From: Oceaniglobus indicus
GTDB lineage: Bacteria; Pseudomonadota; Alphaproteobacteria; Rhodobacterales; Rhodobacteraceae
Length of the DNA stretch: 37,723 nucleotides
NCBI RefSeq assembly: GCF_002751875.1
Contig: NZ_NMZM01000015.1
Location: forward strand, 1 to 37,723
Reading direction: 5' to 3'
Under the pieces are notes generated by a model. The model was not told the DNA's origin, did not search any database, and was given only the letters and a program-made list of their open reading frames with translations. Each line of letters starts with the position of its first letter. The first letter of the stretch is position 1. Both the position numbers and the translations under genes were made by a program. This document shows positions 11,424 to 30,546 of this stretch, piece by piece.

Positions 11424-11442
11424 GCGGCCTTTACTGAACTGG

Positions 11443-11466
11443 CGCGGCGTCCAGATGGGCGCCGCG
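11443..11466 (+). terminator. GC hairpin between dctP and the MOSC gene
   Basis: CGCGGCG (11443-11449) pairs perfectly with CGCCGCG (11460-11466) across a 10-base loop; TT follows. It lies 20 bases after the DctP stop inside an apparent operon. An attenuator or mRNA-stabilising hairpin that keeps the binding protein more abundant than the membrane subunits is the likely role. Confidence 0.6.
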
Positions 11467-11489
11467 TTCTGCGTGCCGGGAGGGGCTTC

Positions 11490-14111: not shown

Positions 14112-14150
14112 ATCATGGTGTAGGCTTTGACGAACAATGACGAGGTTTCC

Positions 14151-15209
14151 GTGTCCGATACTGTTCCCGCGATTTTCGACGGTCATAACGACGTTTTGCT
14201 CAAGCTTTACAATGCCGGCGGGCGGGATGCCTGTGACGGCTTCGTGAACGGGCGCGACGGCGCGATCGACCTGCCCAAGGCCAGGGCGGGCGGCTTTGGC
14301 GGCGGATTTTTTGCCGTCTACGTTCCGTCGCCCGTCGATCGCGAGGCCCGACACGACGAGATGACGCAGGCCACCTATGACCTGCCGCTGCCCGCGCCAT
14401 TGGCGTGGGAGGACGCCGCGCCGGTGGTCATGGCGCAGGCGGCGATCCTGTTCGATCTTCAGACGCGCGGCGCGTTGGTGATCGTCCGGACGGTGGCCGA
14501 GTTGCGGCGCGCGCTGGAGGCCGGCCGGTTGGCCGCGATCTTTCACATCGAAGGAGCCGAGGCGATCGACCCCGACCTGCATACGCTGGACGTGCTGTAT
14601 CAGGCCGGGCTGCGTTCGGTCGGGCCGGTCTGGAGCCGTCCGACGATCTTCGGCCACGGCGTTCCGTTCCGCTATCCGTCAGACGGCGACATCGGTCCGG
14701 GGTTGACGGAACATGGCTTGCGTTTGGTGAAGAGGTGTAATGAACTCGGCATCATGCTGGACCTTTCTCACCTGAACGAGGCAGGATTTTGGGACGTCGC
14801 GCGCCATTCGGATGCGCCGTTGGTGGCGACCCATTCCAACGCCCATGCGATCTGCCCCCATGCCCGCAACCTGACCGACAAGCAGTTGGATGCCATCGCG
14901 GAAAGCGACGGCATGGTGGGGCTGAACTTTGCCGCCGCGTTCCTGCGTGACGACGGGCGGATGCTGGGCGATGTGCCGGTGTCGCAGATGCTGCGCCATC
15001 TTGATCACATGATCGAACGGGTGGGCGAGGATCGCGTCGGCATGGGCTCGGACTATGACGGCGCGGTGGTGCCCGACGGCGTGAAAACCGTGGCCGACCT
15101 GCCGGTGCTGCGCCGGGCCATGGCCGATCACGGCTATGACGCCGACCTGATCGCCAAGCTGTGCCACGGCAACTGGCTGCGCGTTCTGGAAAAGACCTGG
15201 GGGCGTTAA
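14151..15209 (+). CDS. Membrane dipeptidase (peptidase family M19)
   Basis: A 352-residue zinc amidohydrolase of the renal/membrane dipeptidase family. Zinc-ligand motifs are visible: HxD in FDGHNDV at the N-terminus, the bridging glutamate in FHIEGAEAI, histidines in VATHSNAHAI and the aspartate in MGSDYDGAVV. Family members hydrolyse dipeptides and tolerate a D-residue at the C-terminal position. GTG 14151 is chosen because ACGAGG lies 6 bases before it and homology begins at DGHNDV soon after; TTG 14127 is an alternative. It lies directly before a peptide ABC transporter, so imported dipeptides are the natural substrate. There is no signal peptide, so it acts in the cytoplasm. Confidence 0.9.
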   Translation: MSDTVPAIFDGHNDVLLKLYNAGGRDACDGFVNGRDGAIDLPKARAGGFGGGFFAVYVPSPVDREARHDEMTQATYDLPLPAPLAWEDAAPVVMAQAAILFDLQTRGALVIVRTVAELRRALEAGRLAAIFHIEGAEAIDPDLHTLDVLYQAGLRSVGPVWSRPTIFGHGVPFRYPSDGDIGPGLTEHGLRLVKRCNELGIMLDLSHLNEAGFWDVARHSDAPLVATHSNAHAICPHARNLTDKQLDAIAESDGMVGLNFAAAFLRDDGRMLGDVPVSQMLRHLDHMIERVGEDRVGMGSDYDGAVVPDGVKTVADLPVLRRAMADHGYDADLIAKLCHGNWLRVLEKTWGR

Positions 15210-15258
15210 CCCCGGGCGACGACAACAACGACAGACACAACAGAGAGGGAAAACCGAC

Positions 15259-16857
15259 ATGAACATGATGAACCGATATCTCGGCAGTGCCGCAATCGGC
15301 CTGGCCGTCGCCGTCACCGGGGGCGTGGCATTTGCCGAAACGCCGCCCAACATGCTGGTGATCGCCAACCGCATCGACGACATCACCACGCTGGATCCCG
15401 CCCAGAGCTTTGAATTCGCCGGATCTGACGTTCTGCGCAACGTCTATGGCAACCTGGTCAACTTCGATCCCGCCAACCTTGAGGCCGGATATCAGCCCGA
15501 CCTGGCCACCGAATGGTCGGTCAGCGAGGACGGCAAGTCGATCACCTTCACCATGCGCGAGGGGATGACGTTCACCTCGGGCAATCCCGTCACCGCCGAG
15601 GATGCAGCGATGTCGCTGCGCCGGGTCGTGAAATTGAACAAGACACCGGCCTTCATCCTGACGCAGTTCGGCTTTACTCCCGAAAACGTCGACGAGATGA
15701 TCACCTTCGACGACAACACCGTCACCATCACCACCGATCAGCAATACGCCACGTCTTTCGTGTTGAACGCGCTGACAGCCACGGTGGGCAGCGTCATCGA
15801 CTACAAGACGGTGATGGAGAACGAAGTCGACGGTGACATGGGCAACACCTGGATGGCGACCAATTCGGCCGGTTCCTATGCCTACAAGCTGGATTCCTGG
15901 AAGCCGAACGAATCCGTCACCCTGTCGTCGAACCCCGATTTCTATCTGGGCGCCCCCGAGATGGAGCGCGTGATCGTGCGCCACGTGCAGGAAAGCGCGT
16001 CGCAGCGTCTGTTGCTGGAGCGTGGCGACATCGACATGGCCCGCAACCTGAACCCCGAGGACATCGCCGGGATCGAAGGCGCCGATGGCGTCAAGATCGT
16101 GGACGAGTTGAAGGGGCGGTTGATGTATGCGTCGCTGAACCAGAAGAACGAACAATTGTCCAAGCCGCAGGTCAAGCAGGCGTTCAAGTATCTGGTCGAC
16201 TACGAAGGGATGCAGAACAGCTTCCTCAAGGGGAAATACACGATCCACCAGAACTTCCTGCCCCAGACCTATCTGGGATCGGTGAAGGAAAATCCGTTCA
16301 GCCTGGATATCGAAAAGGCAAAGGGTCTGCTGGAAGAGGCCGGTGTTCCCGAGGGTTTCACCATCGAAGCGGGCGTGCGCGAAAGCCAGGAACGCATCGA
16401 GATCGCCCAATCGCTGCAGAACACCCTGGGTCAGGTCGGCATCAAGCTGAACATCACCGTGGGCACCGCGGCGCAGATCCTGGCGCGATACCGTGCGCGC
16501 GAACTCGACCTGTATCTGGGCGAATGGGGGCCGGATTATCCCGATCCGCAGACCAACGCGGGCACGTTCGCCTATAACCCCGACAATTCCGACGAGGCGA
16601 ACGCCACCGGCCTTCTGGCCTGGCGCAACGCCTGGGATACCGGCGGGCTGACGGAAAAGGTGAACGCCGCGGTGATCGAGACCGATACCGACACCCGCAT
16701 CCAGATGTACAAGGACATGCAGGCCGAGTTCCGCGAAATCTCGCCGTTCATCATCATGTTCCAGCAGATCGAACAGACCGCCATGCGCGACAACGTCGAG
16801 GGCTTTTCCACCGGACAGGCGATCACCGCCGCGTCCTATTGGACGGTCACCAAGTAG
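15259..16857 (+). CDS. ABC transporter substrate-binding protein, peptide (DppA/OppA) family
   Basis: A 532-residue SBP_bac_5 family protein with a Sec signal peptide (cleavage near AFA, residue 29). Family blocks include DDITTLDPAQSFEFA near the N-terminus, DLATEWSVSEDGKSITFTMR, the SAGSYAYKLDSWKPNESV block, and the C-terminal GEWGPDYPDPQTN. It is the periplasmic receptor for oligopeptides, dipeptides or related compounds such as glutathione or nickel chelates. GAGAGGG precedes the ATG. The four other ABC genes follow without interruption. The upstream dipeptidase makes di- or oligopeptides most likely. Confidence 0.92.
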   Translation: MNMMNRYLGSAAIGLAVAVTGGVAFAETPPNMLVIANRIDDITTLDPAQSFEFAGSDVLRNVYGNLVNFDPANLEAGYQPDLATEWSVSEDGKSITFTMREGMTFTSGNPVTAEDAAMSLRRVVKLNKTPAFILTQFGFTPENVDEMITFDDNTVTITTDQQYATSFVLNALTATVGSVIDYKTVMENEVDGDMGNTWMATNSAGSYAYKLDSWKPNESVTLSSNPDFYLGAPEMERVIVRHVQESASQRLLLERGDIDMARNLNPEDIAGIEGADGVKIVDELKGRLMYASLNQKNEQLSKPQVKQAFKYLVDYEGMQNSFLKGKYTIHQNFLPQTYLGSVKENPFSLDIEKAKGLLEEAGVPEGFTIEAGVRESQERIEIAQSLQNTLGQVGIKLNITVGTAAQILARYRARELDLYLGEWGPDYPDPQTNAGTFAYNPDNSDEANATGLLAWRNAWDTGGLTEKVNAAVIETDTDTRIQMYKDMQAEFREISPFIIMFQQIEQTAMRDNVEGFSTGQAITAASYWTVTK

Positions 16858-17916
16858 GTGGCGGATGCCGCAAATACCGATCGGGGGCGCGAGCGCGCGC
16901 CCCTGATGCCCGTGCTGTGGAAGATCGCGTCGGTGATCGGGTCGATCCTGGTCACCATGCTGGGCCTGTTGTTCGTCACCTTCATCATCGGACGGGTCAT
17001 GCCCATCGATCCGGTGCTGGCCATCGTCGGCGAACGGGCGTCGCAATCGACCTATGACGCGGTTTATGTCCAGCTTGGCCTGGACAAGCCGTTGATCGTG
17101 CAGTTCCTCTATTACATCGGCGATGTGGTCCGCGGCGATTTCGGCATTTCCCTGCTGAACGCGCGCCCCGTGGCCGAAGACATCGCGCGGGTGTTCCCCG
17201 CGACGCTGGAACTGGCCACCATCGGCGTGATCATGGGCGTCGTGCTTGGCGTGCCGCTGGGCGTAATCGCTGCGGTCAAGCGCGGCTCGTGGATCGACCA
17301 GGTGGCGCGCGTCGTTGCACTTGTCGGATATTCCATGCCGATCTTCTGGCTGGGTCTGGTCGGATTGTTGATCTTTTACGGCATTCTGGGTTGGGTCGGC
17401 GGGCCGGGACGTGTCGGCATCTTCTATGTCGATGTTATGCCGACGATCACCGGCCTGCTGCTGGTCGACAGCCTGATCGACGGCAACTGGGCCGTGTTCA
17501 AGGACGCCTTTTCGCACATCATCCTGCCGGCGTCGCTGTTGGGATATTACTCGCTGGCCTATATCAGCCGGATGACCCGGTCCTTCATGCTGGAACAGCT
17601 TTCGGCCGAATATATCACCACCGCCCGCGTCAAGGGGATGAGCGAATGGAGCGTGGTCTGGACCCACGCCTTCAAGAACATCCGGGTGCAGTTGATCACC
17701 GTGATCGCGCTGTCCTATGCCGGGCTTCTGGAAGGGTCGGTCCTGACCGAGATCATCTTCTCGTGGCCGGGGATCGGCAGCTATATCACCACCGCGCTGC
17801 TGGCGGCCGACATGAACGCCGTGCTGGGCGGGACCGTCGTTGTCGGCGCCGTGTTCATCCTTCTGAACATCTTCTCCGACCTGTTGTACAAGTTCCTCGA
17901 TCCCCGTGCCAAATGA
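16858..17916 (+). CDS. ABC transporter permease (DppB/OppB type)
   Basis: A 352-residue inner-membrane permease of the BPD_transp_1 family with about six spans. The cytoplasmic EAA-type loop is visible in AEYITTARVKGMSEWSVVW. The frame opens with GTG 16858 directly after the stop of the binding-protein gene; no clear ribosome site is seen, so coupled translation or a later ATG at 16906 is possible. The protein is slightly longer than usual for DppB, with an insertion around residues 170-200. Confidence 0.9.
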   Translation: MADAANTDRGRERAPLMPVLWKIASVIGSILVTMLGLLFVTFIIGRVMPIDPVLAIVGERASQSTYDAVYVQLGLDKPLIVQFLYYIGDVVRGDFGISLLNARPVAEDIARVFPATLELATIGVIMGVVLGVPLGVIAAVKRGSWIDQVARVVALVGYSMPIFWLGLVGLLIFYGILGWVGGPGRVGIFYVDVMPTITGLLLVDSLIDGNWAVFKDAFSHIILPASLLGYYSLAYISRMTRSFMLEQLSAEYITTARVKGMSEWSVVWTHAFKNIRVQLITVIALSYAGLLEGSVLTEIIFSWPGIGSYITTALLAADMNAVLGGTVVVGAVFILLNIFSDLLYKFLDPRAK

Positions 17917-17940
17917 TCCCGTAATCCAAAGGAGCGTGCC

Positions 17941-18876
17941 ATGACCGCGACACCGGACACCCCCGGCGGCGCGCCGACGCTGCGATCCTGGCTTTTGACG
18001 GAAACGCCGACCTCGCGGCGCCATGCCCGCTACAGTTCGTTCTACAAGGGCTGGCTGTCGTTCCGGTCGAACACCATGGCGATGATCGGCCTCGGCATCC
18101 TTGTGGCGCTGGTCGCGATCGCAATTTTCGCGCCGCTGATCGCGCCCCACGACCCCTATGCGCAGGATCTGGGGAACCGCCTGCAACCGCTGGGCACCGA
18201 TGGCCATGTGTTGGGCACCGACAGTCTGGGCCGCGATATCCTGTCGCGGCTGATTTTCGGCTCGCGGATCACGCTGTATATCGTCGCGCTGGTGGCGCTG
18301 ATCGCGCCCATTGCCGGGCTGCTGGTGGGCACGGTTTCGGGCTATGCGGGGGGCTTCGTCGATTCCGTGCTGATGCGGATCACCGACATCTTCCTGGCGT
18401 TCCCGCGCCTGGTGCTGGCGCTGGCCTTCGTCGCCGCACTGGGGGCGGGCATCGAAAACGCCGTGCTGGCGATTTCACTGACGGCCTGGCCGCCCTATGC
18501 GCGGATTGCGCGGGCCGAAACGCTGACGATCCGTGGCTCGGACTTCATCAGCGCGGTCCGCCTTCAGGGGGCCGGACCGCTGCGCATCATCATGCGTCAT
18601 ATCTGGCCGCTCTGCGTGTCGTCCCTGATCGTGCGGGTGACGTTGGACATGGCCGGGATCATCTTGGCCGCTGCCGGTCTGGGGTTCCTCGGTCTTGGCG
18701 CGCAACCGCCCAGCCCGGAATGGGGGGCAATGATTTCCGAAGGACGCCGTTTCATCCTTGACCATTGGTGGGTCGCGACGATGCCGGGGCTGGCGATCTT
18801 TACCGTGTCGCTGGCGTTCAACCTGCTGGGCGATGGATTGCGCGACGTTCTGGACCCGAAGGACAGCGGATCATGA
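17941..18876 (+). CDS. ABC transporter permease (DppC/OppC type)
   Basis: A 311-residue permease with an N-terminal OppC_N region (KGWLSFRSNTMAMIGLGILV), the APHDPYAQDL periplasmic segment and LGTDSLGRDILSRLIFGSR, a hallmark of the family. The EAA loop lies in SDFISAVRLQGAGPLRI. AAAGGAG precedes ATG 17941. The stop overlaps the next start (ATGA at 18873). Confidence 0.93.
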   Translation: MTATPDTPGGAPTLRSWLLTETPTSRRHARYSSFYKGWLSFRSNTMAMIGLGILVALVAIAIFAPLIAPHDPYAQDLGNRLQPLGTDGHVLGTDSLGRDILSRLIFGSRITLYIVALVALIAPIAGLLVGTVSGYAGGFVDSVLMRITDIFLAFPRLVLALAFVAALGAGIENAVLAISLTAWPPYARIARAETLTIRGSDFISAVRLQGAGPLRIIMRHIWPLCVSSLIVRVTLDMAGIILAAAGLGFLGLGAQPPSPEWGAMISEGRRFILDHWWVATMPGLAIFTVSLAFNLLGDGLRDVLDPKDSGS

Positions 18877-19727
18877 GCCTTCTGGACGTCGAAAACCTGT
18901 GGGTGAAGTTCCCGACGCGGCAGGGCGTGTTTGACGCGGTGCGCGGCGTCAGCTTTACCCTCGGCAAGGAACGTCTTGGCATCGTCGGTGAATCCGGGTC
19001 GGGCAAGTCGATGACCGGGCGTGCCATCCTGCGGCTGATCCGCCCGCCCGGGATCGTGCAGGCCGACCACATCAAGCTCGGCGGCGACGACCTGTTGCAG
19101 AAGTCCGAAAAGGACATGCGCGCGGTGCGTGGCCAACGGATTTCGATGGTGATGCAGGATCCGAAATTCTCGCTGAACCCGGTGATGCGGATCGGCGATC
19201 AGTTGATCGAAGCCTATCGGCTGGCCAACAAGTCCGACCGCAAGGGCGCGAAAAGCACGGCGATCGAGGCGTTGGAGGCCGTGTCGATCCGCGACCCCGA
19301 ACGGGTCATGCGCGCCTATCCGCACGAGATGTCGGGCGGCATGGGCCAGCGGATCATGATCGCCATGATGCTGATTCCCGACCCCGAGATCCTTATCGCC
19401 GACGAACCCACATCGGCGCTGGACGTCTCGGTGCAACGTCAGGTGCTGTCGATCATGGACAAGCTGGTGACCGACCGGGGCATGGGCCTGATCTTCATTT
19501 CCCACGATCTGAACCTTGTCGCGGACTTCTGCGACCGGGTGCTGATCATGTATTCCGGTCGCGTGGTCGAGGTGTGCCAGGCCGACCGCCTGCACGAGGC
19601 GACCCATCCCTATACCCGCGGTCTGCTGAAGTCGCTGCCCCGTCTGGACCAGCCCCAGGGCAAGCTGCAGGTTCTGAAACGCGACCCGGCCTGGGCCGAC
19701 GCCCCCAGCGTGAGCGGCCGGGCATGA
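18873..19727 (+). CDS. ABC transporter ATP-binding protein (DppD/OppD type)
   Basis: A 284-residue ATPase with Walker [10 protein letters not shown], signature MSGGMGQR and Walker [13 protein letters not shown] followed by the H-loop ISHDL. The signature is a variant of LSGGQ, common in DppD subunits. It is shorter than typical DppD (around 320-330) because the C-terminal oligo_HPY extension is abbreviated after [13 protein letters not shown]. Start ATG 18873 overlaps the DppC stop; the stop overlaps the next start (ATGA at 19724). Confidence 0.92.
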
Positions 19728-20470
19728 GCATGTTGTCGGTCAGCGATCTGAACGTCTGGTTCGGCACGGGGCGCGACCGCGTGGATGCGGTCAGGGACGC
19801 CACCTTCGATGTGCCCGCCGGCGAAAGTTTCGGGCTGGTGGGGGAATCCGGGTCGGGCAAATCCACCATCCTGCGCGCGATCACCGGTCTTGCGCCGACA
19901 TGGTCGGGCCGGATCGAGGTCAACGGCATGACGCTGGGCCCAAGGCGGGATCGCGCGTTCTACAAGACCGTCCAGATGGTGTTTCAGGATCCCTATGCGT
20001 CGCTGCATCCGCGCCATTCGGTCGATGCCGTGCTGGGCGAGACGCTGCATCTGCACGGATTCAAGGACATAGACGCCCGTGTGGTGAAACTGCTTGACGA
20101 TGTCGGGCTGGGCGGACAGTTCCGGTTCCGCTATCCCCACCAGTTGTCGGGCGGTCAGCGCCAGAGGGTGGCAATCGCCCGCGCATTGGCCGGCGAGCCG
20201 GAAATATTGTTGCTAGACGAACCGACATCTGCCTTGGATGTGTCAGTGCAGGCTGAGATCCTCAACCTGCTGACCGACCTGCGTGCCGAGCGGAGCCTGA
20301 CCTATGTCATGGTGTCCCATGATCTTGCCGTGGTCGGCCACATGTGCGGACGGCTGGCGGTGATGAAGGACGGTCGGATCGTGGAAATCATGGATGTGCA
20401 GGCCCTGCGCGACAGACAGGCCACGCATCCCTATTCGCAGGAACTGCTGCGCAATTCGATCGGTGCCTGA
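19724..20470 (+). CDS. ABC transporter ATP-binding protein (DppF/OppF type)
   Basis: A 248-residue ATPase with Walker [10 protein letters not shown], a canonical LSGGQRQR signature, Walker [12 protein letters not shown] and H-loop VSHDL. Like its partner it is short: the oligo_HPY tail after THPYSQELLRNS is nearly absent, compared with about 320 residues in the family. Together with 15259-19727 it completes a five-gene peptide importer. The ATG at 19724 overlaps the previous stop, implying translational coupling. Confidence 0.92.
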   Translation: MSMLSVSDLNVWFGTGRDRVDAVRDATFDVPAGESFGLVGESGSGKSTILRAITGLAPTWSGRIEVNGMTLGPRRDRAFYKTVQMVFQDPYASLHPRHSVDAVLGETLHLHGFKDIDARVVKLLDDVGLGGQFRFRYPHQLSGGQRQRVAIARALAGEPEILLLDEPTSALDVSVQAEILNLLTDLRAERSLTYVMVSHDLAVVGHMCGRLAVMKDGRIVEIMDVQALRDRQATHPYSQELLRNSIGA

Positions 20471-20497
20471 GGGCGCCGGGGGCGGGGAGAGACATTG

Positions 20498-20860
20498 ATG
20501 CTGATGGGGCTGCACCATGTGCAACTGGCCATGCCCAAGGGGGCCGAAGCCAAGGCGCGGGCGTTCTACGTCGACGTTCTGGAAATGCACGAGGTCGCAA
20601 AGCCGGCCGAGCTGGAAGATCGCGGCGGTTGCTGGTTCGAAGCGGGATCGGTGCGCGTGCATCTGGGCGGGGAAGAACCGTTTCGCCCGGCCAAGAAGGC
20701 GCATCCGGCCTTTCAGGTGGCATCGCTGGACGTGACCCGCGACAAGCTGGCCGCGCGCGGTGTGGCAATGGAATCCGACATCGACCTGCCCGACATCCGC
20801 CGCATCTATATCGCCGACCCGTTCGGCAACCGGATCGAGCTTCTCGAACGTCGCGACTGA
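20498..20860 (+). CDS. VOC (glyoxalase/bleomycin-resistance fold) family protein
   Basis: A 120-residue single VOC module: the N-terminal GLHHVQLAMP strand with the metal-type histidine, a VHLGG strand, and the closing DPFGNRIELLE strand with its glutamate. Such proteins bind a divalent metal and a small substrate, but functions vary widely (glyoxalases, epimerases, dioxygenases, drug binding). ATG 20498 follows GGGGAGA; TTG 20495 is in frame. It is the last gene of the peptide-transport run, 27 bases after DppF. No specific function can be assigned. Confidence 0.82.
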   Translation: MLMGLHHVQLAMPKGAEAKARAFYVDVLEMHEVAKPAELEDRGGCWFEAGSVRVHLGGEEPFRPAKKAHPAFQVASLDVTRDKLAARGVAMESDIDLPDIRRIYIADPFGNRIELLERRD

Positions 20861-21053: not shown

Positions 21054-21869
21054 TTGCCGGAACGGCGGGCGGGGGCGCAGACCGTGTCGCGTGCCGCATC
21101 GGTCTTGCGCGTCATCGGACGCCTTGGCGATCCGTCGTTCTCCCAGCTTTCGCGCCAGACGGGCCTGGCCAACGCGACCCTGCGCCGGTTGCTGGTTGCG
21201 CTGATCGACGCGCAACTGGCCGTGCAGGACGGTGTATCCGGGCGCTATCGTCTGGGCGTCGAGGCTTACTTGATGGGCCAGCTTGCCGCGCCGCGTTTCC
21301 TGATTCACGACATTGCGCGCGACGGCCTGACACGGCTGGCCCGTCTGTCGGGCGACACCGCCTTCCTCAGCGCATTCGAGGGCATCTCGACCGTCTGTCT
21401 GCACCGCGAAGAGGGGCAATACCCGATCCGCACCCATGTTCTGAGCGTCGGAGACCGCCATCCGCTGGGGATGGGGGCCGCCGGTCTGGCCGTTCTGGCG
21501 GCCTTGCCCGTGGCGCGGGCCGACGCCATCCTTGCCGCCAACGCCGAAGCGATCCACGCCGCGCGCCCCGAAGTCGACATGGACGTTCTGGCCGTTCTGG
21601 TGACGGACGCGCGCGCCACGGGTGTTGCCCTGAATCCCGGCCTGATCTTTCCGGGATCCTGGGGCATCGCCGCCGCGATCCGCACCGCGAGCGGGACGGT
21701 CGTCGGCGCGCTGACCATCGCGGCGATCGAGGACCGGTTGGGACCGGACCGACAGGCCGAACTGTCCACGCCGTTGCTGGAGGAGGCCGCCAGCATCGAA
21801 CGCCGGTTGGCCCGGCTGGACGCCAATGAATCAAAGCACGCGCCGTCGGGCGCCACCGCCGCCGGATGA
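21054..21869 (+). CDS. IclR-family transcriptional regulator
   Basis: A 271-residue regulator with the IclR architecture: an N-terminal winged HTH (FSQLSRQTGLANATLRRLL, then RYRLG) and a GAF-like effector domain (TAFLSAFEGISTVCLHREEG, HPLGMGAAGLAVLAALP, GSWGIAAAIR). It leads a catabolic cluster on the same strand and most likely controls it in response to the imported acid or its CoA ester. The start is problematic. TTG 21054 opens the conserved frame with no obvious ribosome site, whereas an excellent GAGAGGGAGG-ATG at 21026 is in another frame. A start at GTG 21084 is also possible. Confidence 0.85.
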   Translation: MPERRAGAQTVSRAASVLRVIGRLGDPSFSQLSRQTGLANATLRRLLVALIDAQLAVQDGVSGRYRLGVEAYLMGQLAAPRFLIHDIARDGLTRLARLSGDTAFLSAFEGISTVCLHREEGQYPIRTHVLSVGDRHPLGMGAAGLAVLAALPVARADAILAANAEAIHAARPEVDMDVLAVLVTDARATGVALNPGLIFPGSWGIAAAIRTASGTVVGALTIAAIEDRLGPDRQAELSTPLLEEAASIERRLARLDANESKHAPSGATAAG

Positions 21870-21894
21870 CGGCGATCTGAAAGGGAGAAAGACC

Positions 21895-23073
21895 ATGGAG
21901 CGCAGGAACGACGCCGTCATCGTGGGCTGGGCCCACACCCCCTTCGGCAAGCTCGAGGCCGAGGATATCGAGGCGCTGATCGCGTCCGTCGGGACCGAGG
22001 CGCTGGAGCACGCCGGGGTGTCGCCGGGCGATGTCGATCTGGTGGCCGTGGGCGTTCTGAACTCGGGCTTTTCTAAGCAGGGGTTCGAGGCGGGTCTGGT
22101 CTCGGTCGCCGTTCCGGGGCTGGAGCGGACACCGGCGGTGCGCTGTGAAAACGCCTGCGCGTCGGGATCGGCCGCGCTCTATACCGCCATGGATGCGGTT
22201 GCGGCCGGGCGGGCACGGATCGCGCTGGTGATCGGCGCGGAAAAGATGACCGCCACACCGGGCGTCGAGGTGGGCGATATCCTGTTGTGCGGCGCCTATC
22301 GCAAGGAGGAAGACGGTCTTCCCGCCGGATTTGCCGGGATCTTCGGGCAGATCGCCGACAGCTATTTCCAGAAGAACGGCGACAAGTCCGAAGAACTGGC
22401 GATGATCGCGGCCAAGAACCATCGCAACGGTGTCGATAACCCCTTTGCGCACCTGAAAAAGGACGTGGGCGTGGCGTTCTGCAACACCGTGTCCGACAAG
22501 AACCCGCGTGTGGCGGGACCGCTCCGGCGCACCGATTGCTCGCTGGTGTCGGACGGGGCGGCGGCGCTGGTGGTCACCGACCGCGAAACCGCCGAAGCCC
22601 TGGCGCGCGCCATCGCGTTTCGCGCCCGCGCCCACAAGAACGACGTCTTCCCCCTGTCGCGCCGCGATCCCACCGAATTTGCCGGTCCGCGCGCGGCCTG
22701 GGATGCGGCCAAGGAACAGGCGGGCGTGACGCTGGACGATCTGGATCTGGTGGAAACCCATGATTGTTTCACCATCGCCGAGATGATTGAATACGAGGCG
22801 ATGGGCCTGACCCCGCCGGGCCAGGGGTGGAAGGCCATCCGCGAGGGATGGACCGCGAAGGACGGCAAGATGCCGGTGAACCCCTCGGGCGGCCTGAAGT
22901 CCAAGGGACATCCGATCGGAGCGACCGGCGTGTCGATGCATGTTCTGGCGTCGATGCAGCTGATGGGCGAAGCGGGTGGGATGCAGATTCCCGGTGCCAA
23001 CCTGGCCGGCGTGTTCAACATGGGCGGCGCGGCGGTCACCAGCTATTGCTCGATCCTGGAGCGGGTGAAATAG
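21895..23073 (+). CDS. SCP2-type thiolase (acetyl-CoA acetyltransferase family)
   Basis: A 392-residue thiolase-fold enzyme of the SCP2/SCPx type. The nucleophilic cysteine is in ENACASGSAA, the second catalytic block reads ETHDCFTIAE (HDCF in place of the NEAF of classical thiolases), and NPSGGLKSKGHPIGATG supplies the GHP histidine. There is no C-terminal CxG motif of classical thiolases, as expected for this subfamily. Such enzymes cleave 3-oxoacyl-CoA, often branched or bulky. AAGGGAG precedes ATG 21895. The acyl-CoA synthetase starts one base after its stop, pointing to successive steps on one pathway. Confidence 0.9.
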   Translation: MERRNDAVIVGWAHTPFGKLEAEDIEALIASVGTEALEHAGVSPGDVDLVAVGVLNSGFSKQGFEAGLVSVAVPGLERTPAVRCENACASGSAALYTAMDAVAAGRARIALVIGAEKMTATPGVEVGDILLCGAYRKEEDGLPAGFAGIFGQIADSYFQKNGDKSEELAMIAAKNHRNGVDNPFAHLKKDVGVAFCNTVSDKNPRVAGPLRRTDCSLVSDGAAALVVTDRETAEALARAIAFRARAHKNDVFPLSRRDPTEFAGPRAAWDAAKEQAGVTLDDLDLVETHDCFTIAEMIEYEAMGLTPPGQGWKAIREGWTAKDGKMPVNPSGGLKSKGHPIGATGVSMHVLASMQLMGEAGGMQIPGANLAGVFNMGGAAVTSYCSILERVK

Positions 23074-23074
23074 C

Positions 23075-24640
23075 GTGACGCCATTCTCGACCCGCACGAT
23101 GAACCTGGGCCACATCGTGCAGCAACAGGCCCGCCGCAACGCCGCGCGCCCCGCCTTCGTCTGGGGCGACCGGGTGTGGACCTGGGCCGATCTGAACGAC
23201 CGCGTCGCGGCCATGGCGGCGGTGCTGGCCGATCACGGCATCGGCAAGGGCGACCGGGTTTTGGTGCAGTCGCAAAACTGCAACCAGTTGTTCGAAAGCA
23301 TGTTCGCCTGTTTCCGCCTTGGTGCGGTCTGGGTGCCGGCAAACTTTCGTGGCGCGCCCGACGATCTGGCCTGGATGGCGGAATTGTCGGGCGCAAAGCT
23401 GTTGATCTGCAATGCGGCCTTCCCCGAGCACGCGAAGATCAACGCACTTGCCCTGAGCACGCGGATCGCCATCGGACCCGCCGACTTTGGCCCTGACATC
23501 GACGAGCTGATGCAAAAGGCCGGTCCGCCGCCGCCCCTGGCGGCCGTCGATCGGGACGATCCCGCCTGGTTCTTCTTTACCTCGGGCACGACCGGCCGTC
23601 CCAAGGCCAGCGTCCTGACCCACGGCCAGTTGGGCTTTGTCATCAACAATCACCTCTGCGATCTCGTGCCCGGTCTTGGCCCCGACGACGCATCGCTGGT
23701 GGTCGCACCCCTGTCGCACGGCGCGGGGATGCACCAGTTGATGGCGTCGGCCAAGGGCGCGCCGACGATCCTGACCACCGCCGCAAAGTTCGACACCGCC
23801 GAGATCTGGGGCTTGGTGGAACGCTGGAAGGTCACCAATATCTTCACCGTTCCCACGATCCTGAAGATGCTGGTCGAAGCGCCCGAAGTGGCGCAGACCG
23901 ACCATTCATCCCTGCGCTATATCATCTATGCCGGTGCGCCGATGTATCGCACCGACCAGGTCCGGGCGCTGGAAACGCTGGGCCCCGTCCTGGTGCAATA
24001 CTTCGGGCTGGGCGAGGTCACGGGCGCGATCACCGTGTTGCCGCCAGACGCCCATTCCGCCCTTGACGACAGCCGCGCGGGCACCTGCGGGATACCGCGG
24101 ACCGGCATGCAGGTCGAAATCCAGGACGACACGGGCGCCGAGGTGGCCACTGGCGAAACCGGCGAGATCTGCGTGCTCGGCCCCGCCGTCTTTGCCGGAT
24201 ACTGGGACAATCCCGAAGCCAACGCCAAGACCTTCCGCGATGGGTGGTTCCGCACCGGCGATCTGGGCCACATGGACGCAGACGGTTTCGTCTATATCAC
24301 CGGTCGCCAGTCCGACATGTTCATTTCGGGCGGCTCGAACATCTATCCGCGCGAGATCGAGGAGAAGATCCTGACCCATCCGGCGATCACCGAAACCGCC
24401 GTGTTCGGGATGCCCGATCCGAAATGGGGCGAGGTTGGCGTGGCGGTGTCGGTCCTGAAGCCCGGTCACGCGGTGGACGGCGCCGCGTTGTCGGCTTTCC
24501 TGCGAGAGAAAATGGCCGGCTACAAGGTGCCGCGGGCGTTCCATTTCTGGGATGAGCTGCCGAAATCCGGCTATGGCAAACTGGCCAAGCGCCTGATCCG
24601 GGACGAGTTGGAAAAACGCCAGAGCAAGGGAACTCCATGA
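23075..24640 (+). CDS. Acyl-CoA synthetase (AMP-dependent, class I adenylate-forming)
   Basis: A 521-residue adenylate-forming ligase. Motifs visible: the phosphate loop FFTSGTTGRPKAS (about residues 167-179), YFGLGEVTG around the adenine/acyl pocket, GWFRTGDLGHMDADGFVYI with the hinge region, and the C-terminal PKSGYGKLAKR catalytic lysine. It activates a carboxylic acid to its CoA ester with ATP. GTG 23075 is used as start, one base after the thiolase stop, with GGAGCGGG upstream. The stop overlaps the next start (ATGA at 24637). The acid is unknown; family members span fatty, aromatic and steroid side-chain acids. Confidence 0.92.
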   Translation: MTPFSTRTMNLGHIVQQQARRNAARPAFVWGDRVWTWADLNDRVAAMAAVLADHGIGKGDRVLVQSQNCNQLFESMFACFRLGAVWVPANFRGAPDDLAWMAELSGAKLLICNAAFPEHAKINALALSTRIAIGPADFGPDIDELMQKAGPPPPLAAVDRDDPAWFFFTSGTTGRPKASVLTHGQLGFVINNHLCDLVPGLGPDDASLVVAPLSHGAGMHQLMASAKGAPTILTTAAKFDTAEIWGLVERWKVTNIFTVPTILKMLVEAPEVAQTDHSSLRYIIYAGAPMYRTDQVRALETLGPVLVQYFGLGEVTGAITVLPPDAHSALDDSRAGTCGIPRTGMQVEIQDDTGAEVATGETGEICVLGPAVFAGYWDNPEANAKTFRDGWFRTGDLGHMDADGFVYITGRQSDMFISGGSNIYPREIEEKILTHPAITETAVFGMPDPKWGEVGVAVSVLKPGHAVDGAALSAFLREKMAGYKVPRAFHFWDELPKSGYGKLAKRLIRDELEKRQSKGTP

Positions 24641-25503
24641 TGCGCCACGTCACACATCCCGGCCCCGTGGCCGAGGACCGGCTGGATCTGCTGCCGGTCG
24701 AGGGCAAGGCGATCGAGGTCATGCTGCGACCGGGCATCCCGCTTGAGGATGCCGTGGCACAGGCGATGGCCGATGCCGGATGCGACGGTGGATACCTCGA
24801 CTTCAACGCCGCGCCGGTGTCGGCGCTGGAATATGTCATTCCGGCCCATTCCAGCGACGCCGACCACGTCGCGTGGTATTCCGACATCCATTCCTTTGAT
24901 GGCGCGGGGGTGATCGATCACATGGTGATGATCGTCGGCACCCATGACGGCAAGTCTTTCCTGCACGGTCACGGACGCTGGACACCCGAGGGTGGCACCA
25001 CCGCCCTGGGGCATATCCTGGCGCCGCGCACCGTCTTGTCCGAACCTGTCCGCGCCACCGGCATCGGTGTGACCGGCGGCCGGTTCGAACGCCGCCACGA
25101 TCCCGAAACCAATTTCGATCTGTTCCAGACCACCGGCGCGGGCGTGCGCGATGCCGATCACGCGCTGTTGCGGATCCGTCCGAACGTGGATTTCGACACC
25201 GCGCTCGGCGATGCCTGCGCGCGCCTTGGCTGGGACGCCGCCCGCGCCTTCGGCCTGGGCAGTCTGAACGAGACGGATTTCGAGGATGGCAGCCACCTCG
25301 ACAGCCTGCCCAGCGAATTCCTGATTCTGGATGCTCCGGTGGGGCAGACCGTCAATCGCGGCCCGCACATCGACATCGTCGGTGTCGATGGCGGCAAGCT
25401 GTATCGCGGGTATGTCGAACGCGGCGCGAACCCGGTTCTGATCACCGCGGAAATCGTGCTGAAACGCATGCCGGTTGCCGACACGACCAAGGCCGGTTCA
25501 TAA
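24637..25503 (+). CDS. PCC-domain (DUF296) protein
   Basis: A 288-residue protein matching the PCC/DUF296 family (plants and prokaryotes conserved domain). The arrangement suggests two tandem modules: residues about 1-155 (LEYVIPAHSSDADHVAWYSD, then FLHGHGRWTPEGG and ALGHILAP) and about 175-285 (DIVGVDGGKLYRGYVERGAN and a LITAEIVL strand). Several histidines in the HGHGRW and LGHIL segments could bind metal, as in the zinc-binding archaeal/bacterial relatives. There is no signal peptide, so it is cytoplasmic. Its place between the acyl-CoA synthetase and the TRAP transporter genes, with overlapping start, makes it part of the pathway, but the biochemical role of this family is not established. 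Confidence 0.8.
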   Translation: MMRHVTHPGPVAEDRLDLLPVEGKAIEVMLRPGIPLEDAVAQAMADAGCDGGYLDFNAAPVSALEYVIPAHSSDADHVAWYSDIHSFDGAGVIDHMVMIVGTHDGKSFLHGHGRWTPEGGTTALGHILAPRTVLSEPVRATGIGVTGGRFERRHDPETNFDLFQTTGAGVRDADHALLRIRPNVDFDTALGDACARLGWDAARAFGLGSLNETDFEDGSHLDSLPSEFLILDAPVGQTVNRGPHIDIVGVDGGKLYRGYVERGANPVLITAEIVLKRMPVADTTKAGS

Positions 25504-25533
25504 GACCGAAAACGATCTCAGGGAGGAGACAAG

Positions 25534-26559
25534 ATGAAGACTTTGAAACTGCTGTCGCTTGCGCCGTTGGCGTTGTGTGCCGGCATGGCGCAGGCCGAAA
25601 CCATCGAGATGCAGTCGATCTATCCGTCGTCGCTGCCGCTTCTGGGGGCCACGGGCGCCGAGTTGGGCGGGCGTGTGTCGCGGGTGACGGGCGGCGATCT
25701 TCAGATCAACTTCCACAACCCCGGCGAGTTGGTGAACAGCAACGAGATCTGGGATTCGGTCTCGACCGGCGCGATCCAGGCCGGATGGTTTTCGCCCGGC
25801 TTTGCCGAAAGCGTGATCCCGTCGGCGTCGCTGTTCACCGCGTTCCCGTTCGGCCCCGATGCGGTCGAATACACCGCTTGGTGGTATGACGGCGGCGGCA
25901 AGGAGCTGTGGGCCGAGATCACCGCCGATTTCAACATCCATACCGAGCTTTGCACGGTCCTGTCACCCGAGGCGTCGGGCTGGTTCAACAAGGAAATCAA
26001 TTCGCCCGAAGACCTGCAAGGGTTGAAGATGCGCATCTTCGGACTGGGCGCGGCGGTGATGGAAAAGCTGGGCGCACAGGCGCAATCGCTGCCGGTGGCC
26101 GATACGATGAGCGCGCTGAACCTTGGCACCATCGACGCCGCCGAAGTGTCGTTCCCCGCGATCGATCAGGCGCTGGGGATGCAGGAGCATGCGAACCATT
26201 ATTATTTCCCTGGCTGGCACCAGCAAAGCTCGCTGATCATCTTCATCATGAACCAGGATTACTGGGATGAACTGTCGGACCAGCACCGCGCCGTGATCGA
26301 AGAGGTCTGCGCCGCGAACGTCGCCAAGACGACCGCCATGGGCGAAGTGATCCAGCTGAAGCCGCTGGCCGAACTGGAAGAACAGGGCGTCCAGGTGCAT
26401 GAATGGTCGTCCGACATGCTGGCCGCGTTCCAGAAGGGCTGGGACGAGGTGGTGGCCGAGCGCAGCGCCGAAGATCCCGATTTCAAGCGGGTCTGGGAAC
26501 ACGTCAGCGCCTTCCGCGACGAATACAAGGGCTGGCGCAGCATCGGTTATGTCAAGTAA
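25534..26559 (+). CDS. TRAP transporter substrate-binding protein, TakP-like
   Basis: A 341-residue periplasmic protein with a signal peptide (cleavage near AQA, residue 21). It resembles the TakP-type subgroup rather than typical DctP: FPFGPDAVEYTAWWYDGGGK, SPEASGWFNKEI, LKMRIFGLGAAVMEKLGAQA and YYFPGWHQQSS. Characterised TakP-like proteins bind 2-oxo acids or lactate as monocarboxylates through the arginine in the MRxxGLG segment. So the cluster probably imports a monocarboxylic acid, matching the adjacent acyl-CoA synthetase. AGGGAGGAG precedes ATG 25534. A strong hairpin follows the gene. Confidence 0.92.
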   Translation: MKTLKLLSLAPLALCAGMAQAETIEMQSIYPSSLPLLGATGAELGGRVSRVTGGDLQINFHNPGELVNSNEIWDSVSTGAIQAGWFSPGFAESVIPSASLFTAFPFGPDAVEYTAWWYDGGGKELWAEITADFNIHTELCTVLSPEASGWFNKEINSPEDLQGLKMRIFGLGAAVMEKLGAQAQSLPVADTMSALNLGTIDAAEVSFPAIDQALGMQEHANHYYFPGWHQQSSLIIFIMNQDYWDELSDQHRAVIEEVCAANVAKTTAMGEVIQLKPLAELEEQGVQVHEWSSDMLAAFQKGWDEVVAERSAEDPDFKRVWEHVSAFRDEYKGWRSIGYVK

Positions 26560-26568
26560 CAACCAAAC

Positions 26569-26590
26569 GGGGCGGCGGTTCTGCCGCCCC
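26569..26590 (+). terminator. Strong GC hairpin between TakP-like gene and dctQ
   Basis: GGGGCGGC (26569-26576) pairs perfectly with GCCGCCCC (26583-26590) across a 6-base loop, 10 bases after the binding-protein stop and 20 before the DctQ start. No T-tract follows. It is placed like the hairpin at 11443-11466 in the other TRAP operon and probably limits read-through or protects the upstream mRNA. Confidence 0.7.
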
Positions 26591-26610
26591 GCATCCGCGG
26601 GAAACCCGAC

Positions 26611-27159
26611 ATGAACACAATGCTTGGCGTCGCCCGCGTGCTGGAACAGATCTGTGTCTGGGCGGCCCGGCTTGCCGGTGTGCTGCTGCTGATCCTGACG
26701 GCGGTGATCCTCTATGACGTGATCGGTCGGCGCTTCATCAACACCGGATCCGTGGCGTTGCAGGAACTTGAATGGCACCTGCACGGTGCAATCGCGGTGC
26801 TGGCTTTCGGCTATGCCTATACCCGCAACGCCCATGTGCGCATCGACATCCTGTCGCAGAAATGGAGCGAGGCGCGCAAGCTGAGGCTTGAGGTGTTCGG
26901 GATCATCGTGCTTTTGACGCCGTTCCTTCTGGGCGTCGTCTGGTTCGGCTGGGATTTCGCCATGCGCTCGTTCACCCGCGGCGAAGGGGCGGCGGGCCTT
27001 GGGCTGTCGCATCGCTGGATCATCAAATCGACCGTGCCGATTTCGGCCGTGCTGGCGCTGTGCGGCGCGTGGTCGGTGGCGTTGCGCGCGATCGTCGTGC
27101 TGCGCGCCCCCGAGCGGCTGACCTCTCCATTCACAAGGACCGGCCTGTGGAGCTTCTGA
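26611..27159 (+). CDS. TRAP transporter small permease (DctQ)
   Basis: A 182-residue, four-span protein of the DctQ family, including ELEWHLHGAIAVLAFGYAYT and RNAHVRIDILSQK, the usual signature region. Its longer C-terminal tail overlaps the DctM start by 13 bases. The ATG at 26611 follows GGGAAACC, a weak ribosome site. The EWHLHG variant is common among transporters with TakP-like receptors. Confidence 0.9.
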   Translation: MNTMLGVARVLEQICVWAARLAGVLLLILTAVILYDVIGRRFINTGSVALQELEWHLHGAIAVLAFGYAYTRNAHVRIDILSQKWSEARKLRLEVFGIIVLLTPFLLGVVWFGWDFAMRSFTRGEGAAGLGLSHRWIIKSTVPISAVLALCGAWSVALRAIVVLRAPERLTSPFTRTGLWSF

Positions 27160-28511
27160 TCGACGTCCTGCCTGGACTGATGTTCGCCAGCCTGGTTTTC
27201 GGACTGTTTTCCGGTCTGCCGGTGGCGGTTGTGCTGTGCGGCATCACCTTTGTCTTCGCCGTGCTGGCCTATGTGACCGGCGAAATGCGCCTGGTCCAGG
27301 CCAGCCTGATTCCCAACCGCATCTATGGTGGGATCATCGAAAACCCGGTTCTGGTGGCCGCGCCCATGTTCATCTTCATGGGCGTGCTGATGGAAAAATC
27401 CCGCATCGCCGAAGACCTTCTGATCACGCTGCAAAAACTGCTGCGCGTGGTGCCGGGTGGCCTGGCCCTGGCGGTGACGCTGATGGGCACGATCCTGGCC
27501 GCCGCGACGGGGATCATCGGCGCGTCGGTGGTGATGCTGACGGTGCTGGCGGTGCCGACGATGCTGCAACGTGGATACGCACCGGAAATGGCGGCGGGCG
27601 TGGTCGCGTCGGCGGGGACGCTGGGCATTCTCATTCCGCCGTCGGTGATGCTGGTGTTCATGGGCGACATCCTGACGATCAACCTGGCACGCCTGTTCGT
27701 GGCGGCGCTGATCCCGGGGCTGATCCTGGCCGGGGTCTATATCGTCTATATCGTCATTTCGTCGGCGCTGAACCCGGCCAAGGCGCCGCCCGCGCCGCCC
27801 CTGACCGACGCCGAACGCGCCGGCCTGCTGGGCGAGGCGGCGGTGTCCTTTGCGTTGCCGATGCTGCTGGTGATCGCGGTGCTCGGCTCGATCCTCGGCG
27901 GCATCGCGACCCCGACCGAGGCGGCGGGCGTCGGCGCCTTTGCCGCGCTGTTGCTGGGGCTGGTGCGCGGCCGCCTCAGCCTGCCTGTTCTGGGCGATGC
28001 CATGGACGATTCGATCCGCACCCTCGGCATGTTGTTCTTCATCTTCGTGGCGGCCACGGGGTTTGCCTATGTGTTCCGGATGGTCGGCGGTGAGCATTTC
28101 ATCGTCAACACCGCGCGCAGCCTGGACATGGGCGACTGGGGCCTGCTGGGGATGCTGATGCTGATGATCTTCATCCTCGGGTTCTTCTTCGACTGGATCG
28201 AGATCACGCTGATCATGCTGCCCATTGTGGCGCCCATCGTCGAGCTGATGGATCTGGGCACCCATGTCGCGTCGGGCGATCTGATCTACTGGTTCGCGAT
28301 CCTGATGGCGGTGAACCTGCAAACCTCGTTCCTGACGCCGCCCTTCGGGTTCGCGCTGTTCTATCTGAAGGGCGCGGCGGGGGATTCCCTGTCGATCGCG
28401 CAGATCTATCGCGGGGTCGTGCCCTTCGTGCTGATGCAGCTTGGCGTTCTGGCCTTGATCGTGTGGCAGCCGTGGCTGGTGCTGTGGCTGCCCGAGGCGG
28501 TCTTGCGATGA
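27147..28511 (+). CDS. TRAP transporter large permease (DctM)
   Basis: A 454-residue, roughly twelve-span DctM protein with PMFIFMGVLMEKSRIAEDLL, a GIIGASVVMLTVLAVPTML segment, SAGTLGILIPPSVMLVFMGD and the C-terminal FLTPPFGFALFYLKG. GTG 27147 is chosen as start (VELLIDVLPG) with AAGGA upstream; the reading upstream of it is the shadow of DctQ. The stop overlaps the following SDR start (ATGA at 28508). Confidence 0.92.
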   Translation: MELLIDVLPGLMFASLVFGLFSGLPVAVVLCGITFVFAVLAYVTGEMRLVQASLIPNRIYGGIIENPVLVAAPMFIFMGVLMEKSRIAEDLLITLQKLLRVVPGGLALAVTLMGTILAAATGIIGASVVMLTVLAVPTMLQRGYAPEMAAGVVASAGTLGILIPPSVMLVFMGDILTINLARLFVAALIPGLILAGVYIVYIVISSALNPAKAPPAPPLTDAERAGLLGEAAVSFALPMLLVIAVLGSILGGIATPTEAAGVGAFAALLLGLVRGRLSLPVLGDAMDDSIRTLGMLFFIFVAATGFAYVFRMVGGEHFIVNTARSLDMGDWGLLGMLMLMIFILGFFFDWIEITLIMLPIVAPIVELMDLGTHVASGDLIYWFAILMAVNLQTSFLTPPFGFALFYLKGAAGDSLSIAQIYRGVVPFVLMQLGVLALIVWQPWLVLWLPEAVLR

Positions 28512-29278
28512 CCGGCCGACTGGCGGGCAAGCGGGCGCTGATCCTCGGGGCCGGGTCGGTGGGCGAAGGTGTGGGCAACGGGCGCGCGTCGGCCGTTCTG
28601 TTCGCACGCGAAGGGGCGCGGGTGCTGTGCGCCGACCGATCCCTGGCCGCGGCCAGCGACACCGCCGCCATGATCACCGACGCGGGCGGCGAGGCCGTGG
28701 CGATGCAGGCCGATGCGACCGATCCGGCCGCCGGTCCGGCGATGGTGGCGCGCGCCGAGACCCTGTGGGGCGGCATCGACATCGCGCAGCATTGCGTCGG
28801 CATCAGCGTGCCGGGCGGCGCGGTCGATACCGCGCCCGAGGACTGGGACCGGGTGTTCGATCTGAACCTGCGCAGCGCGTATCTGTTCGCGCGTGCGGTC
28901 GTGCCCGGCATGGTGGCGCAGGGTCATGGATCGCTGGTGTTCCTGTCGTCGCTGGCGGCGCTGCGGGGCGGTCCCTATTCCTATGCCGCCTACGAGGCAT
29001 CCAAGGCCGGGTTGAACCGACTGACCGCCTCGCTGGCCCGCGCCCACGCCGCCGACAACGTGCGCGTCAACGCGGTGATGCCCGGCGTGATCGACACGCC
29101 CCATGTGCGCGCCTTCATCACCGGCGCCCAGGCCAGCACCGACCGCGCGTCCCTGGTGCCCATGGAGCGGCAAGGCACCCCGTGGGAGGTGGCCGAGGCC
29201 GCGCTGTTCCTGCTGTCGGACGCCGCCAGCTTCGTCACCGGCGCAATCCTGCCCGTCGACGGCGGGATGAGCGCCTGA
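28508..29278 (+). CDS. SDR family oxidoreductase of the thiolase/TRAP cluster
   Basis: A 256-residue SDR. The nucleotide site is unusual: GAGSVGEGVGNGRASA in place of a plain TGxxxGIG, with the glycines spread out by a short insertion. Catalytic residues are conserved: serine in FLSSLAAL and YEASK. The C-terminus has the ILPVDGGMSA block. ATG 28508 overlaps the DctM stop, so it is the last gene of the cluster. By position it may oxidise a 3-hydroxyacyl-CoA (or the free hydroxy acid) to the keto form before thiolytic cleavage; this is inferred from context only. Confidence 0.87.
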   Translation: MTGRLAGKRALILGAGSVGEGVGNGRASAVLFAREGARVLCADRSLAAASDTAAMITDAGGEAVAMQADATDPAAGPAMVARAETLWGGIDIAQHCVGISVPGGAVDTAPEDWDRVFDLNLRSAYLFARAVVPGMVAQGHGSLVFLSSLAALRGGPYSYAAYEASKAGLNRLTASLARAHAADNVRVNAVMPGVIDTPHVRAFITGAQASTDRASLVPMERQGTPWEVAEAALFLLSDAASFVTGAILPVDGGMSA

Positions 29279-30258: not shown

Positions 30259-30546
30259 ATGAAAAAAGGTTACTGGATCGTCCATGTTACCGTCACCAAT
30301 GCCGACGCCTACGGCGAATACGTCCGGCTGGATACGCCCGTGGTCGAACGCTTCGGCGGCAAGTTCCTGGTGCGCGGCGGTCTGTCCGAAACGCCCGAGG
30401 CGCCGCAGAAGGATCGCCATGTGATCGTCGAATTTCCCAGCTACGACGCGGCGCGCGATTGCTATCACTCGGATGACTACCAGGCGGCGGCCGCGATCCG
30501 GCGGGCCAATTCCGACAGTGACATCGTCATCATCGAAGGCACCTGA
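30259..30546 (+). CDS. DUF1330 family protein
   Basis: A 95-residue protein of the DUF1330 family, a dimeric ferredoxin-like (alpha/beta) fold of unknown activity. Family blocks: GYWIVHVTVTNADAYGEYV near the N-terminus, FGGKFLVRGG and HVIVEFPSYDAARDCYHSDD. ATG 30259 is preferred, with AAGGAAA upstream, because the family starts at the YW motif; upstream ATGs are not conserved. It is a single gene between convergent/divergent neighbours, giving no hint of function. Confidence 0.88.
   Translation: MKKGYWIVHVTVTNADAYGEYVRLDTPVVERFGGKFLVRGGLSETPEAPQKDRHVIVEFPSYDAARDCYHSDDYQAAAAIRRANSDSDIVIIEGT

Follow-up and report, generated by a model that had tools for sequence, protein, structure and literature searches.

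The DNA considered here is a stretch of 37,723 nucleotides from Oceaniglobus indicus (NZ_NMZM01000015.1, contig 6 in a 3.67-Mb genome; hereafter the window), which carries at positions 21054-29278 eight same-strand open reading frames. In gene order they correspond to an IclR-family regulator, an SCP2-type thiolase, an acyl-CoA synthetase (ACS, the coenzyme A (CoA) ligase of the set), a tandem PCC (DUF296) protein, the P, Q and M components of a tripartite ATP-independent periplasmic (TRAP) transporter and a short-chain dehydrogenase/reductase (SDR). We read them as a substrate-induced catabolic module, in which the tandem PCC protein would be an obligate partner of the ligase and most likely a metal-dependent enzyme acting at the ligase stage, and we give this reading a probability slightly above one half (about 0.55). 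At the level of sequence, it builds on the gene identities, the conservation of the module, the two PCC domains, the fusion and co-occurrence of ligase and PCC, and the intact motifs of the thiolase, ligase and SDR. The kind of system is a known one, that is, a catabolic operon joining a TRAP transporter and a CoA ligase, and its surprising part is the ligase-bound tandem PCC protein. Structures of PCC/DUF296 proteins have been solved, and we know of no reaction assigned to them in bacteria.

The Association of the PCC Protein with the CoA Ligase

For the comparison of neighbourhoods, 84,980 species' genomes were scanned with seven PCC proteins, which gave 128 relatives, and the locus counts refer to the best 80 of these 128, with neighbours taken within 9 kb of PCC and TRAP genes anywhere in the locus. 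The seven queries were consensus-like and excluded the window protein, so that the 80 loci are biased toward that type. Genes were called by a codon-score caller, with some being missed or mis-started, and one locus was found twice (L050 and L100).

The ACS reaches 858.7 bits with NF005676/PRK07470 (equivalog cut-off 774), which makes it a PRK07470-type enzyme. It presents the motifs TSGTTGRPK and GYGK, and its best PDB matches (8weu/8wev) are named fatty-acyl-CoA synthase / feruloyl-CoA synthetase. The tandem PCC is fused to the ACS C-terminus in 12 of the 80 loci (L078-L089, found in Agrobacterium, Neorhizobium, Rhizobium, Xaviernesmea and one Rhizobiales genome), and in L203 an 831-residue ACS gene lies at the site of the PCC match. 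ACS stands directly upstream of PCC in 43 loci, the 12 fusions included, is separated from it by one or two SDR genes in 20, has another position in 12 and is not found nearby in 5; 16 of the 32 unfused pairs measured overlap by 4 bases.

The two genes also occur together at the level of whole genomes. A survey of 394 genomes of the window's family, with ACS presence set at E <= 1e-140, found PCC in 32, ACS in 33 and both in 31 (Fisher 1.6e-42, by a test that ignores shared descent and on a sample of about one genome per genus). Six of ten chosen genomes from the Hyphomicrobiales side had both PCC and ACS and four had neither, and in three of those six (G415, G436 and G477) the two genes lay far apart or on different contigs. 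ACS was present in all of the eight chosen genomes with an unlinked or sparsely linked PCC, and the sole other genome of the window's genus (G183) gave no PCC, ACS or thiolase at the survey thresholds. Gene-distance matrices compared over 51 loci correlated most highly for ACS and PCC (0.958, with 0.87-0.95 for the other pairs), high values for all pairs being expected because the genes travel together.

Because of the 12 fusions and the near-perfect co-occurrence, with the thiolase being found in 52 of the 80 loci, we take the ligase, and not the thiolase, to be the partner of PCC. The idea that a thiolase-PCC complex forms the main link was considered and rejected, given that adjacency figure and no thiolase fusion being seen. 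The preliminary description of this DNA had presented PCC as a possible pathway enzyme or sensor lying between ligase and transporter; its role as a pathway component is supported, and its position is amended to a specific tie with the ligase. Fusion, co-occurrence and gene order are the reasons for placing PCC at the ligase step.

Domains and Conserved Residues of the PCC Protein

Taken alone, the window PCC protein gave no Pfam match even at E 10 and no NCBIfam match at 0.001. Of 22 aligned homologues, nevertheless, all but the window protein (21) matched PF03479 at E <= 1, with 2.1e-18 as the best value, and a profile of the 22 matched seven PPC structures (2dt4, 3htn, 3hwu, 2hx0, 2nmu, 2p6y and 2h6l) with E between 1.9e-8 and 6.3e-5. 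Below 0.04 PPC structures were the only matches, the next one being unrelated (E 0.044). The N-terminal half by itself matches PPC structures over residues 27-159 (2dt4 at 1e-5, 2h6l at 1e-3) and the C-terminal half by itself matches 2p6y (E 2.6e-8), and the protein is composed of two PCC domains. A single-sequence fold prediction had a mean pLDDT of 35.5 and was discarded.

The N-terminal domain of the window protein presents H110-x-H112, G125-H126 and D155-x-E157, that is, an H-x-H…GH signature that the C-terminal domain does not have. In an alignment of 72 rows, corresponding to the window and 71 of the 80 loci (L085, L087, L111, L117, L123, L128, L129, L140 and L144 left out), the residues H110, H112, H126, D155, E157, Y81, G208, S209 and E227 are invariant. 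The PCC pair takes three physical forms: two adjacent genes in some lineages, one tandem protein in most, and the ligase fusion in the 12 loci mentioned. In the split form (L158, L159, L200, L201, L202 and L206) adjacent PCC-N and PCC-C genes lie directly 3' of ACS. All ten split proteins tested match PF03479, nine of them above the cut-off, and the histidine signature is present in the N-subunits and absent from the C-subunits. Two rhizobial loci (L035 at 9909-10761 and L127 at 10909-11761) have a tandem PCC gene with a split PCC-N/PCC-C pair beside it on the opposite strand.

Both halves of the module protein thus resemble, by profile, the single-domain bacterial PCC/PPC proteins (PF03479; 2dt4, 2h6l, 2p6y), with H-x-H…GH in the N-half; the module protein differs from these in being tandem, in having one half devoid of the histidine signature and in its ties with a CoA ligase, seen in the shared operon, the co-occurrence and the fusions. 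Trimeric assembly and metal binding are features of the PCC/PPC family.

It is the conservation of the polar residues that leads us to regard PCC as an enzyme, and this is the weakest step of our reading. The active site would be located in the N-terminal domain and would be metal-dependent, with the C-terminal domain acting as a structural or co-catalytic half. A more specific proposal, according to which the PCC fold would be a heteromeric (PCC-N plus PCC-C) metalloenzyme paired with the CoA ligase and acting on a small oxygenated acyl-CoA, is put forward tentatively, with the odds somewhat against it. It is rather unlikely that the tandem PCC is a non-catalytic ligase subunit that stabilises the enzyme, adjusts its activity in response to the acyl-CoA or retains the product until the SDR takes it over. 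The C-terminal ligase fusion and the translational coupling would be equally in keeping with a bound subunit and with an enzyme, and the C-domain has lost the histidine signature; however, five polar residues of the N-domain are kept in all 72 rows and in the split subunits, which looks more like a reactive site, and PCC is unlinked from the ligase in three genomes, something unusual, if not impossible, for a mere stabiliser. That PCC serves the operon as a sensor or as a DNA-binding regulator is still less probable. The annotation of the single-domain homologues is that of a PPC domain-containing DNA-binding protein and the PDB relatives are named putative DNA-binding proteins, but an IclR regulator is already present in 71 of the 80 loci, none of the 22 aligned members has a DNA-binding domain by Pfam, and a fusion to a CoA ligase is hardly suggestive of a regulator.

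Several observations count against the view of PCC as an enzyme bound to the ligase step. Many annotations call it a DNA-binding protein; its two halves, compared directly, are weakly alike (hhalign probability 52%, E 1.5e-4); and the tandem protein of L140, outside the 72-row alignment, has an Asn as the third His (GN), meaning that this residue is not universal. The 12 fusions all come from related Rhizobiaceae-type genomes and may correspond to one event, and the limits of the Fisher test given above apply to the co-occurrence. Moreover, ACS was found without a PCC match in G030 and G325, two fragmented assemblies (340 and 660 contigs, G325 being 70% complete) in which fragmentation may or may not be the cause of the missing PCC, and the PCC match of G369 is weak and partial.

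The Transporter and the Likely Substrate

The binding proteins of the module are of three kinds. The one found in the window, comprising seven sequences, has TakP as its closest structure (2hzk/2hzl, E 2e-48). In the TakP report (PMC1839085), the ligand of this component of TakPQM, an alpha-keto-acid TRAP transporter of Rhodobacter sphaeroides, is described as held by Arg177, Tyr100 and a cation that is in turn bound by Glu214, Glu240, Gln156 and the Trp215 backbone. The equivalents of Arg177 and Glu214 are kept in all seven module sequences, and in all seven Gln156 is replaced by Glu and Glu240 by Gln, a swap that could preserve the cation site for an alpha-oxygenated acid. On the opposite side of the balance, the Tyr100 region is not conserved and Trp215 is exchanged for Val, Leu, Ile or Met (Val in the window), TakP using only the backbone of this residue for the cation. 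The window transporter differs from TakPQM also in sitting with a CoA ligase module. The label TakP-like, used when the sequence was initially described, is therefore appropriate as regards the closest structure and has to be qualified as regards the ligand residues, which are kept in part.

The commonest kind of binding protein (76 proteins, being the only kind in 66 of the 80 loci and accompanied by another kind in one) is 59-81% identical to 4oan, reportedly RPB_2686 of Rhodopseudomonas palustris HaA2, in which the ligand density is reported to have been modelled as 2-acetolactate. For the third kind, the nearest structure is 4p8b. According to a review, 2-acetolactate was among the TRAP ligands newly identified by a structural-genomics screen (PMC5812351). 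Like the module, the 4oan-type operon contains a CoA ligase, detected in G523 (identical gene) and in a further 10 of the 17 regions examined, but this ligase is of another kind, 30-32% identical to the module ACS; neither the module ACS nor PCC was found in G523, G621, G423 and G510 at the thresholds applied, and the window DctP belongs to a different type of binding protein. The last gene of the 4oan-type TRAP operons of 11 genomes (L170-L180) encodes a different acyl-CoA synthetase, which NCBIfam assigns to PRK08162 in the case of L170. A TRAP transporter and a CoA ligase are hence found together in two settings, in keeping with an acid that requires activation.

With these binding proteins as guide, our preferred guess for the substrate is a short acid that is alpha-oxygenated, and a 2,3-oxygenated acid would also fit, being compatible with the SDR and thiolase too. 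A plain 3-hydroxy acid is possible, although less favoured than a 2-oxo or 2-hydroxy acid, as the binding-protein evidence does not favour it. The corresponding reading, in which the SDR and thiolase would act directly on a 3-hydroxy acid and PCC would be an accessory enzyme or sensor, is unlikely. It would explain why the scanned part of the window has an SDR and a thiolase and neither an acyl-CoA dehydrogenase nor a hydratase, but has to be set against a window binding protein that has an alpha-keto-acid receptor as its closest match and retains some of the alpha-oxygen site, and against the likeness of the binding proteins of 76 relatives to 4oan. A 2-oxygenated 3-hydroxy or 3-oxo acid would satisfy both substrate views.

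Conservation and Distribution of the Module

The 80 PCC loci contain ACS in 75 cases, SDR in 72, TRAP P and M in 72, IclR in 71 and, as mentioned, the thiolase in 52. ACS, IclR, SDR and TRAP are found together in 67 loci and all five components in 50. A lack of conservation of the neighbourhood had been named beforehand as a finding that would refute the module, and with 67 such loci this test does not refute it. The arrangement is more than chance because it recurs in many genera, and the module is conserved and patchily distributed. In a phylum-wide sample the PCC profile matched 23 of 398 genomes at 1e-20, with 22 belonging to the window's class, and a genome of another class (G1004) has IclR, thiolase, ACS, split PCC, SDRs and TRAP parts together. 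Bacteria amenable to laboratory work also have the module, an example being Paracoccus denitrificans PD1222 (PDEN_RS23975-24005), and PCC relatives are present in 49 plasmid records. The Rhodobacterales scope initially suggested was thus correct in that the module is present there and too narrow in that it extends to Hyphomicrobiales and to one genome of another class.

As to additional genes, the most frequent extra cluster corresponds to an ATP-binding cassette (ABC) ATPase (21 of 120 sequences), with none more frequent. L200 (8011-10004) has, after its split PCC pair, a gene for the acrylyl-CoA reductase AcuI (440.5 bits, cut-off 440); acrylyl-CoA chemistry was rejected as a candidate, since a single locus is involved, and so was an aromatic substrate suggested by an MhpA-like gene beside three Paracoccus loci, which is not recurrent. 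Alpha/beta hydrolase genes lie near the module in two clusters (L094, L108, L118, L126, L129 and L134; L031, L073 and L076), and the one member tested of each matches 3-oxoadipate enol-lactonase models well under the cut-off.

The Thiolase and the SDR

The window thiolase scores 649 bits with NF005704 (cut-off 412), and its best PDB matches are the 3-ketoacyl-CoA / SCP2 thiolases 4bi9 and 7yvy. It keeps the nucleophilic cysteine (C88) and the HDCF (289) and GHP (338) motifs of SCP2-type thiolases, and differs from these systems in that the module lacks a recurrent OB-fold (DUF35) partner gene, the clusters in more than 14 sequences being all assigned. Motif misses among 87 relatives correspond to truncated or broken gene calls (L042, L066); in L042 (6301-7466) the thiolase gene is split across two frames.

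Within the window's family, with 78 genomes among the matches listed, a thiolase orthologue was found in 34 genomes, 29 of which also have PCC, the orthologue line of 59% identity having been set after the identities were seen. The genomes with a PCC locus devoid of thiolase were searched for an orthologue elsewhere (25 genomes; L074, L095 and L104 left out), and all 25 had one, at 61-69% identity. Fifteen of these thiolase regions were examined: in 13 the gene lay outside the module, and in the other two, of Azorhizobium type (L158, L159), it belonged to a second copy of the module, one in which the PCC genes are split. The thiolase appears, therefore, as a looser member of the module. The SDRs of the loci fall into three groups of 52, 50 and 41 members, with the window SDR in the first.

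Organization of the Operon in the Window

The coordinates, families and gaps of the module (Table 1) agree with the eight tightly spaced same-strand genes initially described. The intergenic distances, in gene order, are 25, 1, -4, 30, 51, -13 and -4 bases, with GTG or TTG starts where needed. The P-Q gap of 51 bases contains the hairpin that had been noted, a 57-nt stretch with it folding at -27.1 kcal/mol (z -3.1), and the 30-base gap 5' of DctP presents the ribosome-site-like GGGAGGAG, with an ordinary fold (z 0.2). A search for a sigma-70-like promoter found 0, with 0.9 expected. The closest NCBIfam model of the regulator is BhcR, at 86 bits and far under its cut-off of 350.

Table 1. Features of the module and their positions in the window.
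Feature	Position	Strand	Basis
IclR-family regulator; start TTG 21054 or GTG 21084 (uncertain)	21054..21869	+	Pfam HTH_IclR, IclR_C
SCP2-type thiolase (THL); C88, HDCF 289-292, GHP 338-340	21895..23073	+	NF005704, motifs, PDB 4bi9/7yvy
AMP-forming ACS; start GTG 23075 or ATG 23099	23075..24640	+	NF005676/PRK07470, AMP-binding, motifs
Tandem PCC (DUF296) protein, 288 aa	24637..25503	+	Pfam matches of relatives, profile against PPC structures, His signature
TRAP solute-binding protein DctP, TakP-like	25534..26559	+	Pfam DctP; best PDB match 2hzk/2hzl
Hairpin in the DctP-DctQ gap	26568..26591	+	Perfect 9-bp arms; z -3.1
TRAP small permease DctQ	26611..27159	+	Pfam DctQ
TRAP large permease DctM; GTG start, overlapping DctQ	27147..28511	+	Pfam DctM; TIGR00786 273.6 bits, cut-off 268.5
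SDR oxidoreductase; YEASK 162-166, unusual GAGSVGEGVGNG nucleotide loop	28508..29278	+	Pfam adh_short_C2; motifs; SDR grouping

Upstream of the module, positions 14127-20860 hold a peptide-type ABC importer (binding protein, two permeases and two ATPases), which is preceded by an M19 dipeptidase gene and followed by one of the VOC/glyoxalase fold, the stretch ending about 190 bases 5' of the IclR gene. Downstream, positions 30259-30546 hold the gene of a small DUF1330 protein.

The Proposed Pathway and Its Implications

The families and the conserved neighbourhood support the regulated uptake-and-CoA-catabolism module that the preliminary description had proposed, and its remark that acyl-CoA dehydrogenase and enoyl-CoA hydratase are missing was confirmed: neither was found among the 16 scanned window proteins, so that the module does not constitute a complete beta-oxidation operon. 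In the pathway that we envisage, the substrate would induce the operon through IclR, and TRAP P-Q-M would import a short monocarboxylate, probably alpha-oxygenated, with the oxygen next to the carboxylate. The AMP-forming ACS would convert the imported acid into its CoA thioester, and the tandem PCC would act catalytically on the ligase substrate or on the acyl-CoA product. Oxidation of a hydroxyl by one or more SDRs would follow and yield a 3-oxoacyl-CoA, whose cleavage by the SCP2-type thiolase would release acetyl-CoA and a shorter acyl-CoA, the order of the steps being the presumed one. A biosynthetic direction, in which the imported acid would be converted into a 3-oxo or 3-hydroxy acyl product, is very improbable; the thiolase and SDR reactions are in principle reversible, but the coupling of importer and IclR regulator within one compact operon is the layout usual for catabolism, and nothing points to a product-using enzyme or exporter.

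Among described systems, the CoA-dependent pathways for aromatic side chains, namely Cou and the HpeE/HpeF proteins of acetovanillone catabolism, also combine an AMP-forming CoA ligase with a subsequent 3-oxoacyl-CoA cleavage in which acetyl-CoA is lost; they differ in that HpeF/CouO are hydrolases instead of a thiolase, and the passages on them mention no PCC protein, the term DUF being absent from the text (PMC9618137). In the open-licence literature, among the matches listed, nothing links DUF296/PPC with a thiolase, TRAP transporter or ligase, and no such pathway appears.

The co-occurrence with the ligase, the three physical forms of the PCC pair and the short operon offer a concrete place in which to seek the PCC reaction. 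If the heteromeric metalloenzyme proposal is true, it would represent the first catalytic role for a bacterial DUF296/PCC protein and an undescribed degradation pathway across Alphaproteobacteria. Should the substrate be found, a recurring and still unnamed route for small organic acids could be annotated in many genomes.

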